Positions 4,979 through 35,143 of a stretch of DNA of 35,143 bases are shown piece after piece. Each line of letters begins with the position of its first letter. Positions within the stretch are counted from its first letter, which is position 1. The notes beneath the pieces were generated by a model. That model did not search any database. It saw only the letters and a program-made list of their open reading frames with translations, and had not been told where the DNA came from. The translations under genes were made by a program, and so were the position numbers. Origin of the DNA: a virus; the IMG/VR virus record IMGVR_UViG_3300008740_000024, positions 1 to 35,143 of that record; one strand, 5' to 3'.

Positions 4979-5101
4979 TCAACTTACCACCATTTTTTTA
5001 TCAGAAGAAAATTTCTCATGGAGTTCTATACAGCACTCACACTCATCTTTCCTGCATTGTTCTTCTTCCCAATGAAAGCATATACCACAAACACACTCCA
5101 T
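4979..5101 (-). CDS. cysteine-rich micro-protein, 40 residues
   Basis: Starts at ATG 5101 in a TAATG overlap with the exonuclease stop and ends at TGA 4979. The start MECVCGICFHWEEEQC and the following CECC give seven cysteines plus histidine in the first 30 residues, enough for one or two zinc sites. A short linker leads to the HExxH gene. Probably a small zinc-binding protein; partner unknown. Confidence 0.65.
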   Translation of the reverse strand: MECVCGICFHWEEEQCRKDECECCIELHEKFSSDKKMVVS

Positions 5102-5835
5102 TAGACACTTGCACCACCGACAGCTACACGCTTCATCTCTTTAAGAAGAACGTCAAAGTTCTGCCATACATCTATCTCACAATGTTCACAGATATACTTC
5201 ATACTGCTTTTCCATTTTGGGTGATCCTTGTAATATACATTCTTCCATATGTCCAAATTAACTGAAGTCTTATCGTCATATCCACCAACTATCTTCCCTG
5301 CATTTCTTAGACTGTTGCCACCTGAATTATAAAGATTATATTTATTCTTCGTTATTCGCCAGGTATCTATTATTCTAAATTCATTATATGATGGAACTAG
5401 CTTGTCCTGTTTTGTCAAGTGACACCTAGCAGTTACATAAGGTAGATCAAACTTTGAAATATAATGTCCTGCAACTATATCAGCTCTTGACAATTCATCA
5501 GCTAGTGTTTGTAAAATACGAATATCAAAGTCAAAGTTCTTTGTCTTATAACCCCTTTTCATATCTTCAGGGAGTAGGCAATCATATATCATTTCTTGTT
5601 TGTCAGTAAGTATATCCCAATTCAATGCATACCAACATATTACAAACCCCATTCGAGCATCAAAGTTTATTGATTCTATATCAAAGATTATGAAATTTCT
5701 GTAGCCTTTCATCAACCATCTATACTGTTCCTTGCTTAGATTATCACAATCAAATAGATAGTCCACTTCAAACTCATGTAGTTTTCGGTGGTTGTCAAAC
5801 CTTTCTTGTATTTCAGCTTTGTTTAGATTTCTCAT
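5101..5835 (-). CDS. DEDD-type 3'-5' exonuclease, PolB-exonuclease-like
   Basis: Start set at ATG 5835 (MRNLNKAEIQERF), which has a GAGGT ribosome binding site five bases upstream; a longer frame from 5880 lacks one. Motif Exo I is FIIFDIESINFD, Exo II is GHYISKFDLPYV, and Exo III is near YICEHCEIDVWQNFD. This is the RNase H-like fold seen in the proofreading domains of family B polymerases and in stand-alone exonucleases. No polymerase domain is attached. It may process DNA ends in replication or recombination together with the Hjc-like resolvase. It overlaps the upstream gene by 23 bases. Confidence 0.8.
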   Translation of the reverse strand: MRNLNKAEIQERFDNHRKLHEFEVDYLFDCDNLSKEQYRWLMKGYRNFIIFDIESINFDARMGFVICWYALNWDILTDKQEMIYDCLLPEDMKRGYKTKNFDFDIRILQTLADELSRADIVAGHYISKFDLPYVTARCHLTKQDKLVPSYNEFRIIDTWRITKNKYNLYNSGGNSLRNAGKIVGGYDDKTSVNLDIWKNVYYKDHPKWKSSMKYICEHCEIDVWQNFDVLLKEMKRVAVGGASV

Positions 5836-6031
5836 TTTTAACCTCGAACTTTTCCTGGAACTCTGTCCATTGACTGTCATTCATCTTTGTAACTTTTATA
5901 GGCTTTTGTGTCAAAAGGATTGTTGTGTTTTCCCAATCCTCACATGCTTCTTCAAGCTTTCGTTTCAATACTTTGATTTCTTTTTCGTCAAAGTTCTCTG
6001 CATGAATTATAGCTAAACGCTTTTCTTCCAA
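5813..6031 (-). CDS. hypothetical charged protein, 72 residues
   Basis: Begins at TTG 6031 (MEEKRLAIIHAENFDEKEIK) with no strong ribosome binding site. The protein is helical and charged, probably coiled-coil. It ends inside the start region of the exonuclease gene and carries that gene's ribosome binding site. Function unknown. Confidence 0.6.
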   Translation of the reverse strand: MEEKRLAIIHAENFDEKEIKVLKRKLEEACEDWENTTILLTQKPIKVTKMNDSQWTEFQEKFEVKNEKSKQS

Positions 6032-6062: not shown

Positions 6063-6278
6063 CTACATTTTTGCAAAATGTCCGTCTTGTCTTGGATCAC
6101 ATTCGGGGTTTCCATTGTATATACAAGCAGGACATCTATCCTTACCACGCTTAATCCATGATGTAGAACAACCCTTATGTCTTGACAAACGCCACTTGCC
6201 CGTTCTAGCATGATGTTCGTGATCCCATGACAGTCCTGTTTCGCCACAGAACTTGCAAGTTTTATCGCTTACGCCAAA
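6063..6278 (-). CDS. HNH/treble-clef-like zinc domain frame without a start codon, +1 to the methyltransferase
   Basis: Open frame of 71 codons reading CKFCGETGLSWDHEHH, then RHKGC and CPACIYNGNPEC. The CxxC, DHEHH and later CPAC order resembles a small HNH/endonuclease VII-like zinc nuclease. It has no ATG, GTG or TTG before the first cysteines and is closed upstream by TGA at 6279-6281. It lies in the +1 frame of the methyltransferase and overlaps its stop. Skipping one base at that stop (cga t aaa act) would fuse the two. It is either a programmed +1 frameshift product, a decayed or assembly-disrupted fusion, or a gene using an unusual start. Confidence 0.55.
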   Translation of the reverse strand, partial: FGVSDKTCKFCGETGLSWDHEHHARTGKWRLSRHKGCSTSWIKRGKDRCPACIYNGNPECDPRQDGHFAKM

Positions 6279-6681
6279 TCACCACCATATATGCATTTCT
6301 AGCTTGAAACTTTGTAGGTATTTTATTCTTGTTAAACTTTATTCTTCCCTGTGGTTGAGCATAATATTCTGCATGATTCTCTATGCATTTATGCCAAAAC
6401 TTTGATGATACTGTATTAGCAGGTATGAACATCATAATGTTAATATTTTGCCTACGCCATTGTTGGTATGCTTTTTCAACAAATAATCCTGTAATAGAAT
6501 GTGGTGGATTACACCATACATCTTCAGTCCAATCTTCTTCAAGTCCATCTTTAAGATACTTTTTGCATAATGTGTTATTCTCATTTGCTGCTGCATCAAT
6601 TTGTGGAAACATCTTGTATTTTTTGCATAAATCTCTATACAGTTGTATTGGTGTTTCAAACTCATCATCTTTCGGGATCAA
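6262..6681 (-). CDS. dam: phage-type DNA N-6-adenine methyltransferase
   Basis: 139 residues in the Dam-like phage family (DNA_N-6-adenine_MTase type). It opens with DEFETPIQLYRDL, has the AdoMet-side IDAAANENN (residues 28-36), and the catalytic motif WCNPPH at 56-61 (NPPH, a variant of DPPY). It would transfer methyl groups from AdoMet to adenine in viral DNA, possibly to escape host restriction or mark replicated DNA. It overlaps the MCM gene by 17 bases. Its 3' end overlaps a zinc-domain frame (6063-6278) that may be its natural C-terminal extension. Confidence 0.85.
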   Translation of the reverse strand: MIPKDDEFETPIQLYRDLCKKYKMFPQIDAAANENNTLCKKYLKDGLEEDWTEDVWCNPPHSITGLFVEKAYQQWRRQNINIMMFIPANTVSSKFWHKCIENHAEYYAQPQGRIKFNKNKIPTKFQARNAYMVVIWRKR

Positions 6682-22328: not shown

Positions 22329-23117
22329 TCAATCACATAAAACTATAGCCCCCCTATCAATTCCACAGAAAAAGGGAATCCAATCAGGGAATGGATATTT
22401 GAATCCACTTTCACCATAAATCAAATAAACCATTTCAATATCAAGATCAGTTATTTCTACAGATACATCTGAAAAGGGATCAAATGAGTGATACATTATT
22501 GATTCAGATTCACAACTTTCAGGACATGATAGAGTATTGTAATAATGTTCCAATCCGATTCCATGCCCAAACTCATGCTTCACAATCCGTTCTATGCTCT
22601 CAATCGGAAAATTCTCTCTATGAACATTCAATTCAATTTTATGATCTAATCCCTTTGATATATCAATCTCTATATGATTGTTATAACCTGTTGTATAGAC
22701 TGTTATAAATGCCCATTTATGCCAGGACTTGCTAAAGTCAAATGATGTAGTTCCTATTGCATTATCATTATCATTAAATTTCTCAAATACTATGAATATG
22801 TTACATTCTTCAAAATCGCTAGTATGTTTATCTGCGTGTTCATACCATTCAAATATTAATATATGAAATGCCCAATCACCACCTGATCTTTCTAGTTTAT
22901 GTTGCCAATCAAATACTGAATCTATAGTTACATCTCTTATTTCTTTCCAATTAGTAATTTCTGATTTGTCAGGTAGCATTATACATACATTTGGATTATC
23001 TTTAAAGTTCAATCCATGAATTATATTATACATATTTGCATTGGCCATGCCTACTATACCTGCAAATACTATCATACAACAAATGAAAAAAAGAAGGGTA
23101 TACGCTACCGTAATCAT
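22329..23117 (-). CDS. membrane-anchored or secreted metzincin (matrixin-like) metalloprotease
   Basis: 262 residues. The N-terminal 26 residues (VAYTLLFFICCMIVFAGIV) are a signal or anchor segment, so the domain acts outside the membrane. HEFGHGIGLEH at 181-191 is the full HExxHxxGxxH metzincin zinc site, followed by the Met-turn SIMYHSF at 206-212. A final YLIYGESGF matches matrixin ends. Located in the virion block next to two small membrane proteins. Inferred role: cleavage of S-layer or surface protein during release or entry. A host-derived protease acquired by the virus is likely. It has its own late box. Confidence 0.9.
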   Translation of the reverse strand: MITVAYTLLFFICCMIVFAGIVGMANANMYNIIHGLNFKDNPNVCIMLPDKSEITNWKEIRDVTIDSVFDWQHKLERSGGDWAFHILIFEWYEHADKHTSDFEECNIFIVFEKFNDNDNAIGTTSFDFSKSWHKWAFITVYTTGYNNHIEIDISKGLDHKIELNVHRENFPIESIERIVKHEFGHGIGLEHYYNTLSCPESCESESIMYHSFDPFSDVSVEITDLDIEMVYLIYGESGFKYPFPDWIPFFCGIDRGAIVLCD

Positions 23118-30164: not shown

Positions 30165-30782
30165 ATGAAATGTGCTAATATTAACTGTGAAAATGAATTA
30201 GACCAATATAGGATTGATGCCCAAAATACACCAGGAACAAAGAGAAGATGGCGATTTAGATTTTGTCATAAATGTGCCAAAGATAACATAAAAACCATGT
30301 GGAAGTGTAAAGGGTGTGATTCAATACTAACCAAAGTTACTCATAATGTATTTTCACAATACTGCTCTACTGATTGTAGAAGAAGGAATAGTGAGTATTC
30401 TTCATGGCTTAAAAGATACCAAAGTGGTAAATATAATATTCGTATAGCTTCTATTTTTTGTAAAATGTGTGAAGAAGAAATACCATACGTTCCTAATGAA
30501 CATAGAGGAAATTTCTGTATGGAATGTAAAATCAAAATAATAAAGAAAATGCATAGTAAAAAGTGTATTCTATGTAAAAGTGATGATATACCTTTTGGTA
30601 ATCTGTTTTGTAGAAATTGTAGATATGATTATAAACATGGTATTTATAAGAATAAACCTACACCATCTTTCAGAAGAAAGTGTTTGGCTTGTGCTAAATT
30701 TACAAAAAATAACAGCTTCTGTTCTAACAAATGCTTACTTAGAGGGCGACATTTATATAACACTATTCCTTATGACAAATGA
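30165..30782 (+). CDS. protein with five successive four-cysteine zinc sites
   Basis: 205 residues with cysteine pairs C3/C8+C34/C37, C48/C51+C67/C71, C99/C102+C118/C121, C134/C137+C149/C152 and C173/C176+C186/C190. These form five zinc-ribbon-like units separated by basic linkers. The protein is strongly basic. This suggests nucleic-acid binding; a late-gene regulator is a fair guess because it is divergent from the virion operon. No named family recognised. Confidence 0.8.
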   Translation: MKCANINCENELDQYRIDAQNTPGTKRRWRFRFCHKCAKDNIKTMWKCKGCDSILTKVTHNVFSQYCSTDCRRRNSEYSSWLKRYQSGKYNIRIASIFCKMCEEEIPYVPNEHRGNFCMECKIKIIKKMHSKKCILCKSDDIPFGNLFCRNCRYDYKHGIYKNKPTPSFRRKCLACAKFTKNNSFCSNKCLLRGRHLYNTIPYDK

Positions 30783-30885
30783 TGAAATTGAGTGTTGTGA
30801 TGTAAAGTGGAAGAAGGAAGTTCTAAAGTGCCTGATATGCGACAAGAGGCTTCGCCACCCACAGAAGCAGGATTCAACCAAATAA
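30772..30885 (+). CDS. zinc-knuckle micro-protein, 37 residues
   Basis: ATG 30772 overlaps the stop of the five-zinc-site gene. The product MTNDEIECCDVKWKKEVLKC continues LICDKRLRHPQK, giving CC and CxxC pairs for a single metal site with a basic tail. Function unknown. Confidence 0.55.
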   Translation: MTNDEIECCDVKWKKEVLKCLICDKRLRHPQKQDSTK

Positions 30886-31025
30886 TCATAGAACAGAATG
30901 ATTCTACTACTTCTTACAATAAAAACTTCTCAATAACCCTTGTTTCTAAGAGGGAAACAGTAAAGGAACTGATAGAGATTGCAAAATCGCTTAAAACAGA
31001 TGCTTTATCTGCAAACCTGCATTAG
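30837..31025 (+). CDS. hypothetical protein, about 62 residues
   Basis: Overlaps the preceding micro-gene in another frame. ATG 30837 (MRQEASPPTEAGFNQIIIEQ) is preferred over GTG 30807. The second half, ITLVSKRETVKELIEIAKSL, is a regular strand-helix stretch. No family recognised. Confidence 0.5.
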   Translation: MRQEASPPTEAGFNQIIIEQNDSTTSYNKNFSITLVSKRETVKELIEIAKSLKTDALSANLH

Positions 31026-31113
31026 ATGTGGTTTTCAGATGAAACGGATAACTTCTTGTCACAGGCGTTGTGAGAACTGTGGATCAGAGATAGATTGTTC
31101 GGATATGGTTTAA
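31000..31113 (+). CDS. zinc-ribbon micro-protein, 37 residues
   Basis: Frame from ATG 31000 to TAA 31113: YLQTCIRCGFQMKRITSC, then RRCENCGSEIDC. Two CxxCG knuckles 18 residues apart make a complete zinc ribbon. It overlaps the previous gene by 26 bases and is followed immediately by the next ATG. Possibly a small transcription or RNA-binding factor. Confidence 0.65.
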   Translation: MLYLQTCIRCGFQMKRITSCHRRCENCGSEIDCSDMV

Positions 31114-31230
31114 ATGCAACTTGACCTAGTTTTTACGCTTATTTGTTTTGGCTATTTTTTGGGTGGTTTGGCCATTGGCTACTATATACCTAAATGGCAA
31201 GAATCCAGGAATAAAGGAAGATGGGAATGA
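31114..31230 (+). CDS. single-pass membrane micro-protein, 38 residues
   Basis: Starts at the base after the previous stop. Residues 3-25 are hydrophobic (LDLVFTLICFGYFLGGLAIGYYI), followed by a basic, tryptophan-containing tail. Overlaps the next gene start. Function unknown. Confidence 0.6.
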   Translation: MQLDLVFTLICFGYFLGGLAIGYYIPKWQESRNKGRWE

Positions 31231-31457
31231 ATTGGTTTAAGAAAGAGAAGTTTGCACTTCCTGATGAGGATTTACAGAGGGATTTGATTCTTGAAATAGA
31301 GGAAAAACTACTATCTGCTACGGGATCAGAACGGACAAAATTGACATATATGTTGGCTAATCAAATGTTCTTTCTAGATCAGATAAGAGAGCAAAACAAG
31401 TCCAATCTGCCTAAAAGGTTGAATAATAAGGGCAAATGGGTTTGGGTAGAAGATTAA
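31221..31457 (+). CDS. hypothetical protein, 78 residues
   Basis: Starts at ATG 31221, or at ATG 31227 in an ATGA overlap. The product MGMNWFKKEKFALPDEDLQR is helical with an acidic first half and a basic tryptophan-rich end (NNKGKWVWVED). No family recognised. Confidence 0.7.
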   Translation: MGMNWFKKEKFALPDEDLQRDLILEIEEKLLSATGSERTKLTYMLANQMFFLDQIREQNKSNLPKRLNNKGKWVWVED

Positions 31458-31459
31458 TA

Positions 31460-31475
31460 TAACTTATATACCATA
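31460..31475 (+). promoter_or_regulatory. promoter box TAACTTATATACCATA for the gene at 31492
   Basis: Identical 16-mer to the box before 3166, with TATATA about 22-27 nt before ATG, as expected for a leaderless archaeal transcript. Confidence 0.7.
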
Positions 31476-31491
31476 CACACTAACCACAAAT

Positions 31492-31770
31492 ATGGCAGTT
31501 TCAAACCCTGAAAAAGCAGCATGGGTTCATGGCTATCTACGTGCCTACCTGGACATACTTACTACTATGGGTGGATATGATCCTAAGACACTAGCTGACG
31601 GAACACAGTTCATAGCAGAGGAAACCTTGCGTAAACTGAAAGTTCCTGTTGACGATAACATTCTACGGGTAATAAGAGGCTTAGATGATTTGGAAATACA
31701 ACTAACTATCAACCATGTGATAAGCAAGAATACACCAAAGACATTCAGCAAGTTTTCTATCGTTTTCTAA
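31492..31770 (+). CDS. hypothetical protein, 92 residues
   Basis: Soluble helical protein (AAWVHGYLRAYLDILTTMGG, then LRKLKVPVDDNILRVIRGLD) with no recognised motif. It has its own promoter box shared with the 2099-3166 gene, so the two are probably expressed together. A GC-rich hairpin follows the stop. Confidence 0.75.
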   Translation: MAVSNPEKAAWVHGYLRAYLDILTTMGGYDPKTLADGTQFIAEETLRKLKVPVDDNILRVIRGLDDLEIQLTINHVISKNTPKTFSKFSIVF

Positions 31771-31780
31771 ACAGTTATAT

Positions 31781-31793
31781 GGGGCGAAGCCCC
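31781..31793 (+). terminator. hairpin GGGGC-GAA-GCCCC followed by TTT
   Basis: Perfect five-pair G/C stem with a three-base loop, 10 bases after a stop codon and 12 before the next ATG. It is the most GC-rich hairpin of the region. It may terminate, or structure the leader of the next gene, which has a TATA-like TTATAT just upstream. Confidence 0.5.
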
Positions 31794-31804
31794 TTTAGTT
31801 GATA

Positions 31805-32068
31805 ATGAGTATATGGTTGATACTATGGATAACACTTTGCGTGATTTCATTCTTCGGAATTACTATGGCCTTTGCATGTGAAGATGGTAAAGAAGTATCT
31901 GGAATAATAACACTACCACAGTATATATCAGAGAGTGCCATAGTCAAGCCACCATATGAAGCAGATTGGTATGACAGGACATATGATAGTGCCTATTGGG
32001 ATTTGCCAACAAATATATATAACCCTGACAACTATGAACTATGTCTATTAACGGGGTGGTGTAACTAG
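31805..32068 (+). CDS. secreted small protein, 87 residues
   Basis: Start ATG 31805 (MSIWLILWITLCVISFFGIT) fits the TTATAT box 25-30 bases upstream better than the TTG at 31799. The first 22 residues are a signal peptide ending FGITMAFA before CEDGKE. The mature part is acidic and tyrosine-rich (YEADWYDRTYDSAYWDLP) with two C-terminal cysteines. An exported or virion-associated protein is likely; function unknown. Confidence 0.7.
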   Translation: MSIWLILWITLCVISFFGITMAFACEDGKEVSGIITLPQYISESAIVKPPYEADWYDRTYDSAYWDLPTNIYNPDNYELCLLTGWCN

Positions 32069-32100
32069 GTTTTCGGGCTTTTTTCTTGGCTTTAAAAACC
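32068..32100 (+). terminator. T-tract terminator after the secreted protein gene
   Basis: The T-rich run GGGCTTTTTTCTTGG lies just after the TAG and is enclosed by the inverted repeat GGTTTT/AAAACC. Archaeal transcripts commonly end at such U tracts. Confidence 0.5.
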
Positions 32101-32146
32101 ATTAGTCCGTATGTGAGTGACCTGCGATCTGCCGATCAGTTTTTTT

Positions 32147-32317
32147 AGGCGTGAGTTGGTTATATACTCACAAATCCAGGCACAAATATCGATCAAAGGG
32201 GTGGCCACCTAATATATATGTTTGCATTTCCAGGCGTGATCGCATTTTCTAAATAAATAATTCTCTCACTCTTAGCCATGATTAGCCATGACTAACTATA
32301 ACTTGATTTAGGCGTGA
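32147..32317 (+). repeat. three dispersed AGGCGTGA direct repeats
   Basis: Exact 8-mers at 32147-32154, 32232-32239 and 32310-32317, spaced 85 and 78 bases. All are on the same strand inside the non-coding region. Confidence 0.5.
32272..32291 (+). repeat. tandem 10-bp direct repeat TTAGCCATGA
   Basis: Two adjacent exact copies in the non-coding region, close to the second and third AGGCGTGA. Confidence 0.65.
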
Positions 32318-32461
32318 AACTTGGATATTTTACAAAATGTATTGATTAAAACCTAAGAGCCTGATATATTATAGCTTAGTATGGAAAGTATATTTTAATC
32401 TAGGAATAAGTTAAGCTGAATGAATGTTAATAAATAATAATAATTAACAAAAAAAATAGTT

Positions 32462-32481
32462 AGTGATAATCAAATATCACT
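32462..32481. repeat. 7-bp inverted repeat AGTGATA / TATCACT
   Basis: Perfect stem with six-base loop, within an A/T-rich background. Could be a regulator site or RNA hairpin. Confidence 0.5.
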
Positions 32482-32651
32482 TATGATCTTATCAATTATT
32501 TCTAATTGAATTAAGATTTGATCTATTAGGTATCGTTCGTATTGTAGAAGATCCATGATCTATCTTATACCTTATTCCTTATTCATTTTGACTGTTAATA
32601 ATTATTAATAATGTTATGAACTTTATTAAATCTAGGATCGGCTAAAATGAG

Positions 32652-32684
32652 ATTATAAATATATGTCGATCATGTGTCGATCAT
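32652..32684 (+). promoter_or_regulatory. promoter with paired operator-like repeats before the amidoligase gene
   Basis: TTATAAATA near 32652-32660 is a TATA box. Two exact copies of TGTCGATCAT at 32664-32673 and 32675-32684, with a period of 11 bases (one helix turn), cover the expected transcription start. That is a classical place for a repressor. The leader to ATG 32721 is about 35 bases. Confidence 0.6.
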
Positions 32685-32720
32685 TATAAGATTAAATACA
32701 AACTTTGTAAAAGATATGAT

Positions 32721-34211
32721 ATGAAATATGATGAAACAAAAGATGATCAATCATTCAATATTATCTTTAAAAATATACATGCGTTAGGCGTGGAATTAGA
32801 GGGTTTATTTGTAAGAGATGAAATTAACGATTATTGGAATAGTAGAGACATTACACATATCAAAGACTTTGTTAATGATGGATCAATTAGTGGACTATAT
32901 CCACGTGAATGTCATTTATGTGCAAGTGAGGAAGATCACGAAGATTGCTCAATGATTACAGATGATGAATATTACGCAGAAAAAGAATGCCGATCAGAGC
33001 CTTTAACATCATTAAAACAATTTAATCAATTTTTGCATTCTATTGCTTACCCAATTAAATTTAATAATTCTTGTGGGGCACATTTTCATTTTTCATTAAA
33101 TAAAAAATCTGATTATAGATACTTGATTAATGAAGATTTTAACACACAATTTTTAAATTTTTTATATGCTTATTCAAACAATACTAAAACAAGAATAACA
33201 AATGGTGTTTTTAAAAAAAGGTTATCTGGAGATGAAAATTATTGTAAAACATCATACAACGGTAAAAAGCAATTGATAAACAGAGATTCACTTGAATCTA
33301 GATATTTTATGTTTAATTTTGGGGCATATTACAAACATAAAACCTTTGAATGTAGATTACCCAGTGTTATGAATGATAAATACACATATCAAAGATTAGT
33401 AATAAACTCTTTAAAATTCATAGACGATTATTTAGAAATGGCTAAAAAATTAAACAAAACTAATGTTATAAAAAATCTAGGTAATAATATAAAATATGGC
33501 TATTCAGTAAAAAACGATCATGTGTGGATTTTTCTATTTGATCCTAAACAAGAATTAAAACAATTATTCAAAAGATCAATATTAAAAAGCAGATATAATG
33601 ATTATATTAATAACAATTACAGCTCAAATTATGATTCTAGGTTATCAAATACACATAGATATAATATTTTTATCAGAGAGATTTTAAAAATTAATACTGA
33701 TCATTTTTTTGAATTGTCAGAAAAAAACCAAGAGCGAATTAAAAACTATTACTTAGATGAAATTATTTATTTGCATGATGACTATAATTATAACTATGAT
33801 ATTAAATTGGTTAATCCATTAAAGATTAAAAACGGTATTATAACAACTAGCAGAAATTTAATTAAATCTAGAATTTTTGCAAGTGATAATTATTACGGTT
33901 ATCATTCTAAACAATCAAAATATAATTTATTCACTGACAATGATCTACAAATGCCAAATCTAAGCATTTTACAAATGGAACAAGCAAAAAAAGGTATAAC
34001 TTTTAGACTAAATGATTTAAAGAGATTATGGGGCATAAAAGATTTGAATTTATGGTTAAATTATGTTGATGAATTTTATAATGAATTAAAAACTAAAACA
34101 ACGGATATTGTAAAAGAATTAAGCAAAGCATTCTATTATAATTCTGATTTAATTTTTAATGATAGTATAGTTAATAACACCATGAATGATATATTAAAGG
34201 AGTTAGATTAA
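32721..34211 (+). CDS. Amidoligase_2-like ATP-dependent carboxylate-amine ligase
   Basis: 496 residues. N-terminal ALGVELEGLF (21-30) is the E-x-E motif of the glutamine-synthetase-fold amidoligases; CGAHFHFSL (118-126) is the histidine motif; KTFECRLPS (207-215) matches the family's E-x-R motif. An extra cysteine-rich segment (CHLC at 64-67, then EDHEDCS) may bind zinc. The C-terminal half is long and unassigned. The family forms amide bonds between carboxylates and amines using ATP and is often paired with a class II amidotransferase, which is exactly the next gene, three bases away. The substrate here is unknown; surface or protein modification is inferred. Codons are visibly AT-richer than in the virion genes. 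Confidence 0.8.
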   Translation: MKYDETKDDQSFNIIFKNIHALGVELEGLFVRDEINDYWNSRDITHIKDFVNDGSISGLYPRECHLCASEEDHEDCSMITDDEYYAEKECRSEPLTSLKQFNQFLHSIAYPIKFNNSCGAHFHFSLNKKSDYRYLINEDFNTQFLNFLYAYSNNTKTRITNGVFKKRLSGDENYCKTSYNGKKQLINRDSLESRYFMFNFGAYYKHKTFECRLPSVMNDKYTYQRLVINSLKFIDDYLEMAKKLNKTNVIKNLGNNIKYGYSVKNDHVWIFLFDPKQELKQLFKRSILKSRYNDYINNNYSSNYDSRLSNTHRYNIFIREILKINTDHFFELSEKNQERIKNYYLDEIIYLHDDYNYNYDIKLVNPLKIKNGIITTSRNLIKSRIFASDNYYGYHSKQSKYNLFTDNDLQMPNLSILQMEQAKKGITFRLNDLKRLWGIKDLNLWLNYVDEFYNELKTKTTDIVKELSKAFYYNSDLIFNDSIVNNTMNDILKELD

Positions 34212-34213
34212 AA

Positions 34214-34996
34214 ATGTGTATTCTTGCGTTATATCCTAAAAATTATCCAAAATTAAAGGATTTAAAAAATATGGAATCTATGCATAAAAACGGATCAGGA
34301 ATAGCATTTTTTGAAAATGGTAAATTATTTTACTCAAAAGGATTAAAACAAAATGCAAATGATATTATGAAAATAATAAAAGATCATAAGCCAAAATTAC
34401 CAATCATGATTCATTTTCGCATGAGCTCTAGTGGTGTCACAAATTGTGACGATTTATGTCACCCATTCGAAATAAATCTCAAAGGAGTTAATAATTTAAA
34501 TGGTTATTGTAAATATTTACTTGCTCATAATGGCACGGTTAATGATGATTTTTGGAATTGCCAAATCGAATTGATTTGTAAATTAAAAAATATTAAATTA
34601 CCTGATGGAAATTGGTCAGATAGTAGAGCCATGTCTTTTATTATTGCTCATTGTGGCTTCGATTACTTAAAAAAATTCTTTGATGATCAAAAAATCGCTA
34701 TTTTATACGCTGAAAATAATAAAATGAAATATACATTAATAGGATCATATGAAAAAAGAAATAAAACTCTATTATCGAATACATGGCATATTAACGATAG
34801 TTATCAGTCAATGTTTAATTTTGATTTAGATAAATATAGGAAAAAATCAAGCAAATACGATAAAGAAGATTTATGTAAACAATGCTTAAAACTAGGTTAC
34901 ACTATAGATAAAAATGATTGCTTTGAGCACTTTGAATACATAGATAATACAATAGATAACGGGCTTTATGATAATTATTTAAGGAAAAATGATTGA
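34214..34996 (+). CDS. class II glutamine amidotransferase domain protein
   Basis: 260 residues starting MCILALYP, so Cys2 becomes the N-terminal nucleophile after Met removal. Other class II landmarks: HFRMSSSG (67-74), CHPFE (82-86), LAHNGTVND (103-111) and SDSRAM (136-141). The domain releases ammonia from glutamine. There is no synthase domain attached, so ammonia or a glutamine-derived product probably goes to the amidoligase encoded just upstream. The C-terminal 80 residues are charged, with CKQCLKLG near the end. Start and operon spacing are unambiguous. Confidence 0.85.
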   Translation: MCILALYPKNYPKLKDLKNMESMHKNGSGIAFFENGKLFYSKGLKQNANDIMKIIKDHKPKLPIMIHFRMSSSGVTNCDDLCHPFEINLKGVNNLNGYCKYLLAHNGTVNDDFWNCQIELICKLKNIKLPDGNWSDSRAMSFIIAHCGFDYLKKFFDDQKIAILYAENNKMKYTLIGSYEKRNKTLLSNTWHINDSYQSMFNFDLDKYRKKSSKYDKEDLCKQCLKLGYTIDKNDCFEHFEYIDNTIDNGLYDNYLRKND

Positions 34997-35009: not shown

Positions 35010-35143
35010 AATGACAAAACAAATTAATTATTTGAAAATGATATTTGTATATGATTCGCCTATGATTGAAAGTGATCAAATTGAATTTAATATTAAACTC
35101 GAAAGTTATAAAACAATTTTAAAGCTCATTAATGATTTAGAAA
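35010..35143 (+). CDS. partial hypothetical protein, C-terminus outside window
   Basis: Starts at ATG 35010, 14 bases after the amidotransferase stop, and is open to the window edge (44 codons). It begins MTKQINYLKMIFVYDSPMIE and is AT-rich like the two genes before it, so it is probably the third member of that operon. No family can be judged. Confidence 0.55.

Follow-up and report, generated by a model that had tools for sequence, protein, structure and literature searches.

Which carboxylate would an amidoligase and a glutamine amidotransferase act on when both enzymes are encoded by a virus of archaea? For more than a decade, amidoligase cassettes of viruses have been taken to alter the cell wall and so block superinfection. 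In PMC10580990 the OM43-phage authors, citing Iyer et al. 2009, pass on the idea that pairs of the phiEco32 type act on the cell wall to prevent superinfection; the literature searched contained no test of the cell-wall and superinfection explanation of such cassettes. We analysed a gene pair of this kind in a stretch of viral DNA of 35,143 nucleotides (the window), which is the whole of the IMG/VR record IMGVR_UViG_3300008740_000024.

A ligase gene and an amidotransferase gene lie side by side

The first gene of the pair (32721-34211, + strand) encodes a putative glutamine synthetase (GS)-like amidoligase of 496 aa, assigned to a divergent Amidoligase_2 type from the ORF, an hhalign comparison and motif blocks, with a predicted catalytic part at residues ~1-235. 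The second gene (34214-34996, +) encodes a class II (Ntn) glutamine amidotransferase (GATase) of 260 aa with Cys2 as the nucleophile. Both ORFs lie where the preliminary description had placed them, but the gap between them is 2 nt (34212-34213) rather than 3. A ribosome-binding-site-like AAAGGAG (34196-34203, +) stands ahead of the GATase gene, within the end of the ligase gene. The GATase gene ends 147 bases before the end of the window, where a third short ORF (35011-35143, +) has its start only; it is cut by the contig end because the whole record is 35,143 bases long. The pair is preceded by a non-coding leader (32100-32720), in which, judging by identity bins, the twin contig L002 starts to diverge from the window. 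The whole group is located in a divergent arm beyond the end of the terminase small-subunit gene, and the GC content is 24–26% in this arm versus about 36% in the terminase and helicase genes.

The genome is assigned to a tailed virus of ammonia-oxidising archaea

The sole match of the large terminase in the phage collection was the Nitrososphaera viennensis provirus Pro-Nvie1 (35% by tblastn, 37% by alignment). The MCM-type helicase matched archaeal viruses only. Related terminases occur in ten cellular contigs, each with Nitrososphaerales, Nitrososphaeraceae or Thaumarchaeota in its title. Because the terminase, the helicase and the cellular terminase relatives agree, the assignment of this genome to a tailed virus of Nitrososphaeria (ammonia-oxidising archaea) is well supported, in line with the archaeal virus proposed in the preliminary description. 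These archaeal hosts have no murein. Elsewhere in the window, a short protein (5101-5880) matches the exonuclease domain only of a family B DNA polymerase (PF03104, E 6.6e-4); the polymerase part is missing from the ORF.

The pair is kept in the closest relatives and varies between near-identical viruses

Direct searches with the ligase or the GATase (Pfam, PHROGs, NCBIfam, PDB sequences, phage records, IMG/VR) gave no matches or weak ones, so relatives were reached through the terminase. In IMG/VR these were the twin L002 (98.6% over 15 kb), the contigs L005, L006, L007 and L012 with a terminase identity of 79%, and a more distant terminase clade at 53–58%, which includes L015, L017 and L018. 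Scans for further relatives with two-sequence alignments as queries returned the known locus only. In the 79% clade, all contigs extending to the locus carry both genes in the same order: L012 (ligase 2940-1960, GATase 1959-907), L007 (ligase 6348-5182, GATase 5182-4307) and L005, where the pair is as in L012 and the GATase is cut by the contig end. The contig L006 ends just upstream of the ligase. The GATase follows the ligase at 0–2 nt or overlaps it in the window, L012, L005 and L007, and this tight spacing in the same order bears out the single operon described earlier. Our analysis demonstrates both the gene pair and the conservation of the operon; every homologue that could be checked has its amidotransferase partner, so the refuting case named in the preliminary description, a ligase homologue on its own, did not turn up. 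A GATase-profile search of the 53–58% clade (L015, L017, L018) found no pair, which makes it an accessory trait. When 400 Nitrososphaeria genomes were searched for host copies, only spurious ligase matches full of stops were obtained. One metagenome-assembled contig binned to this class (C146 of G034; L048 1-2094) has a COOH-NH2-ligase-like gene (HMM E 2e-15) in front of a class II GATase; this contig may be bacterial-phage contamination.

The portal, capsid and terminase are 79–81% identical between the window and the 79% clade, whereas the ligase and the GATase are 24–42% identical. The small genes next to the pair are in the same 24–42% range; all accessory genes in the arm evolve fast, not the pair alone. 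Between L002 and the window, most 500-bp bins from 18.5 to 32 kb are 99.8–100% identical, with the main low bins at 23.0–23.5, 25.0–25.5 and 27.5–28 kb. From about 32.1 kb the identity falls to 82–90%, through the leader and the ligase. The two ligase alleles are 79% identical as proteins, with a dN/dS of 0.25 and unchanged motifs. L005 and L012 are 99.7% identical over 12 kb and have 26 mismatches in the first 465 bases, within the GATase, whose alleles have a dN/dS of 0.06. The alleles of both genes are under purifying selection. The differences sit at the ends of contigs, where an assembly may be chimeric: either near-clonal viruses swap alleles of the locus, or these ends are chimeric. Under both readings, diverged and functional alleles coexist.

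Profile comparison places the ligase near phage Amidoligase_2 proteins

The preliminary description assigned the ligase to the Amidoligase_2 group and proposed a profile search against PF12224 as a check. No model in Pfam, PHROGs or NCBIfam matched the ligase, which lies below recognition by PF12224: there was no match at E≤1 or 10 in the window, nor for the L007 and L012 homologues. LUZ24 gp18 itself barely clears this model (24.0 vs 22 bits). Since no library model recognises the ligase, 13 diverse phage Amidoligase_2 proteins were gathered. In hhalign, the three archaeal-virus ligases aligned with these proteins over 157 columns with P 1.9e-5, compared with 0.42–0.85 for the controls (COOH-NH2 ligase, GATase, terminase), and GxExE, DGS, HxH, FC/YC, (K/R)Y..N and ExR were brought into register. 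The single-sequence comparison of the ligase with the phage family gave P 0.033 only. Among 687 ORFs, the best non-self matches of the archaeal ligase HMM were the phage amidoligases L069, L062 and L056, in a ranking that leaves out L046 and L047, loci pre-selected by the same model. In a sequence-to-profile search, the phage amidoligase HMM does not single out the archaeal ligases. The assignment is thus backed by the profile–profile comparison: we identify the ligase as a divergent GS-like protein of the Amidoligase_2 type, whose family membership is shown at the profile level.

The motifs named in the preliminary description (GVELE, CGAHFHF and ECRLP in the ligase, an N-terminal Cys and HNG in the GATase) are real. 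The ligase contains G23-x-E25-x-E27, D53-G-S55, E87, C118-G-A-H121-F-H123, R167...C175, R194-Y195...N199 and E210-x-R212. The 13 phage proteins share a set of invariant residues (GxExE, S of DGS, E, HxH, C, Y..N and ExR), and the ligase has all of them, as E25, E27, S55, E87, H121, H123, C175, Y195, N199, E210 and R212. By alignment, E25, E27, H121, E210 and R212 are kept in all three archaeal families. These are presumably metal and phosphate ligands by correspondence with glutamine synthetase, in which we take the second His not to be a metal ligand. Of the two histidines placed in the proposed active site earlier, H121 is present in all three families; H123 is not strictly required, as HTTV replaces HFHF in the L007 homologue. 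For a frame of 496 codons to stay open by chance at 25% GC, p is about 1.5e-20. The strict motif string occurred in 2.5e-4 of ligase shuffles; among 498 ORFs of at least 200 aa, it matched only the amidoligase loci and the archaeal candidates, the pattern being derived from the same kind of proteins that it matched.

Between DGS and E87 the ligase has a lineage-specific Cys-rich insert, CHLCASEEDHEDC (residues ~63-78; 32907-32954, +), with C64, C67 and following cysteines. It occurs in the window, L002 and L007 and is missing from L012 and from the phage proteins; zinc binding by this insert is a guess. The C-terminal extension of 261 aa (residues ~236-496; 33426-34208, +) has no recognised domain, is missing from the L007 and L012 homologues in the alignment, and matched itself alone in a phmmer search against all ORFs examined. 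Both parts exist as first described, but neither is conserved among homologues, and for this reason they were dropped as functional domains.

Could these be unrelated or inactive proteins with amidoligase-like motifs, the ligase being degenerate or structural? The ligase has no library match, AlphaFold2 on shallow alignments gave a mean pLDDT of 38.1 and 35.1 in two runs, and HxH is lost in L007. We nevertheless regard this as very improbable, given the hhalign P value relative to its controls, the purifying selection, the five residues kept in all three archaeal families and the constant pairing with a GATase.

The amidotransferase retains the full catalytic set

The GATase matches PF13230 with E 3.8e-4 and 19.9 bits, under the curated 23-bit cut-off, and PF13522 with E 0.032. 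Its motifs are C2, R69, H83-x-F85, H105-N-G-T108 and D136. C2, R69, H105-N106-G107-T108 and D136 are invariant across the window, the L007 and L012 homologues and LUZ24 gp19. The PF13230 match, below the cut-off as it is, and the full catalytic residues support the class II assignment made earlier. In asparagine synthetase B, GlmS and PurF, a Cys2 glutaminase domain feeds ammonia to a synthetase. In contrast to these enzymes, the synthetase of the window is separate and GS-like, and is not an ATP pyrophosphatase, isomerase or phosphoribosyltransferase domain. MurT-GatD (PMC3267633, PMC5871853) is similar to the pair in that two co-transcribed genes, for a ligase and a glutaminase, serve carboxylate amidation; it differs in its Mur-ligase fold, class I glutaminase and murein substrate, which is absent in archaea.

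The pair may amidate a carboxylate outside murein

An Amidoligase_2-type ligase and a class II GATase are shared by the phage cassettes of Bruynoghevirus (LUZ24 gp18-gp19), Kuravirus (phiEco32-like), Grimontviridae and Zobellviridae, and amidoligase/GATase cassettes are also found in OM43 phages (PMC10580990) and UFV-P2 (PMC3890496). In LUZ24 and Kuravirus the ligase comes first, as in the window, and the motif blocks are the same. Unlike the window, the phage cassettes add a COOH-NH2 ligase, a small conserved gene and often an ATP-grasp protein and a gamma-glutamyl cyclotransferase. Their GATases are 510–600 aa long versus 260 aa, and their hosts have murein, whereas the archaeal hosts of the window do not. 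HMMs built from the phage genes found no COOH-NH2 ligase or ATP-grasp match in the window, L005, L007 and L012, where the window stops 147 bases past the GATase and L007 covers both sides of the pair. Since these peptide-making genes of the phage cassettes are absent, the peptide-like tag suggested in the preliminary description is not supported.

We lean towards the view that the pair is one glutamine-dependent amide-forming enzyme that amidates a non-murein carboxylate, with a probable role in virus–host or virus–virus competition. Simple carboxylate amidation is favoured because murein is absent from the hosts and the pair lacks the peptide-ligase partners seen in the phage cassettes. The class II amidotransferase would hydrolyse glutamine with Cys2 and pass ammonia to the GS-like ligase. 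With ATP and Mg2+ (E25/E27, H121, E210, R212), the ligase would activate a carboxylate as an acyl phosphate, which would then be converted to a primary amide. We infer this chemistry and the ammonia transfer from family knowledge. The substrate could be a carboxylate of the host envelope, in a polymer or a protein (uronic acid or Asp/Glu), or one on a virion or host protein. The role may be, for example, superinfection exclusion or defence evasion. Both the target (S-layer, lipid, virion or other) and the role are guesses; competition is probably involved, because the pair lies in an accessory arm that evolves fast and differs in its alleles from one near-clonal virus to another. It could also be that the ligase is free-standing and uses free ammonia or another amine, and that the GATase acts as a hydrolase instead.

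The same phage cassettes suggest another chemistry. A peptide-type ligase would couple a carboxylate to an amino acid or polyamine, giving a tag or metabolite, and the GATase fold would be a trimming hydrolase of gamma-glutamyl or amide bonds. Some proteins of the class II amidotransferase fold are hydrolases, and the COOH-NH2 ligase, ATP-grasp and gamma-glutamyl cyclotransferase that accompany the pair in phages fit peptide chemistry. However, no peptide-forming partners accompany the pair in the archaeal viruses, and the GATase retains the full glutaminase set (C2, R69, HNG, D136), so we consider this chemistry rather unlikely.

The neighbouring genes raise the question of DNA modification, in which the pair would form an amide at a modified base and so protect the virus DNA from host restriction. 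A Mom-family gene (PF25680, E 4e-43 in L012) is found at 4420-5019 in L012, about 0.9 kb from the upstream gene of the ligase operon and on the same strand, and likewise in L005 (2965-3564) and L006 (1761-2360). L007 and L068 have a DNA methylase close to the pair, and the window has a Dam methylase (6262-6681), though far from the pair. The homologous Mom of Mu puts a glycinamide-type group on adenine and is not known to need such partners. Moreover, the window and L007 have the pair with no Mom nearby, and no base-modifying pathway genes were found among the proteins scanned. We therefore judge DNA modification by the pair improbable. Mom in L012, L005 and L006, together with the DNA methylase beside the pair in L007, gives the arm the look of an anti-defence region.

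Haloviruses may carry a counterpart of the pair

A class II GATase in the haloviruses phiCh1 and ChaoS9 has already been published, with only the GATase named (PMC8651126, PMC6471424). We found that 4 nt upstream of this GATase lies an uncharacterized protein of 357 aa with GMEVE, GSHVHL, YSSVTFN and IELR in the amidoligase order. The candidate pairs are phiCh1 ORF42+41 with ORF40 and ChaoS9_220 with ChaoS9_215. The coordinates of the candidate ligases are L065 1319-2392 (ChaoS9 30818-31891) and L068 2027-3313; in L068, a 62% relative, all halovirus motifs are kept in near-identical form. The strict motif string occurred in 0.14% of ChaoS9_220 shuffles. Phage-cassette GATases are among the nearest relatives of the ChaoS9 GATase, and phiH seems to retain only a fragment that matches the GATase end. 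As in the window, phiCh1 and ChaoS9 have a two-gene layout and a murein-free archaeal host; unlike it, they have no Cys-rich insert and a different small gene after the pair. PhiCh1 and ChaoS9 are likely a second archaeal-virus lineage with the pair, but this is a motif-level lead and not a proven member, since the profile comparison of the candidate ligases lacks significance (P 0.2 and 0.42). As the hosts of phiCh1 and ChaoS9 are in culture, the halovirus case lends itself to a direct test.

What stands out in this locus is the archaeal host, the stripped-down architecture and the likely halovirus counterparts. A ligase–GATase core without peptide-making genes, in viruses whose hosts have no murein, implies that murein cannot be the only target. 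A broader reading, possible but offered with reserve, is that the pair is a minimal two-gene module for glutamine-dependent carboxylate amidation, common to tailed viruses of two archaeal phyla, with a non-murein target, and that the larger phage cassettes may have grown out of this core. If true, viral amidoligases could no longer be explained in general by cell-wall modification.

Other variable genes of the virus

A metalloprotease-like gene (22329-23117; Matrixin, PF00413, E 2.5e-5) with a hydrophobic N-terminus lies within the structural module. Its protein is 33–35% identical to its relatives versus about 80% for the capsid and portal, and the adjoining region at 23.0–23.5 kb differs between the window and L002. 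It is possible that this gene encodes an envelope-degrading or egress enzyme. A Cys-rich, zinc-ribbon-like protein is encoded at 30165-30782 in the window, 3677-4261 in L006 and 8957-9502 in L007. It evolves fast (24–27% identity), and its gene is transcribed divergently from that of the terminase small subunit in the whole clade.
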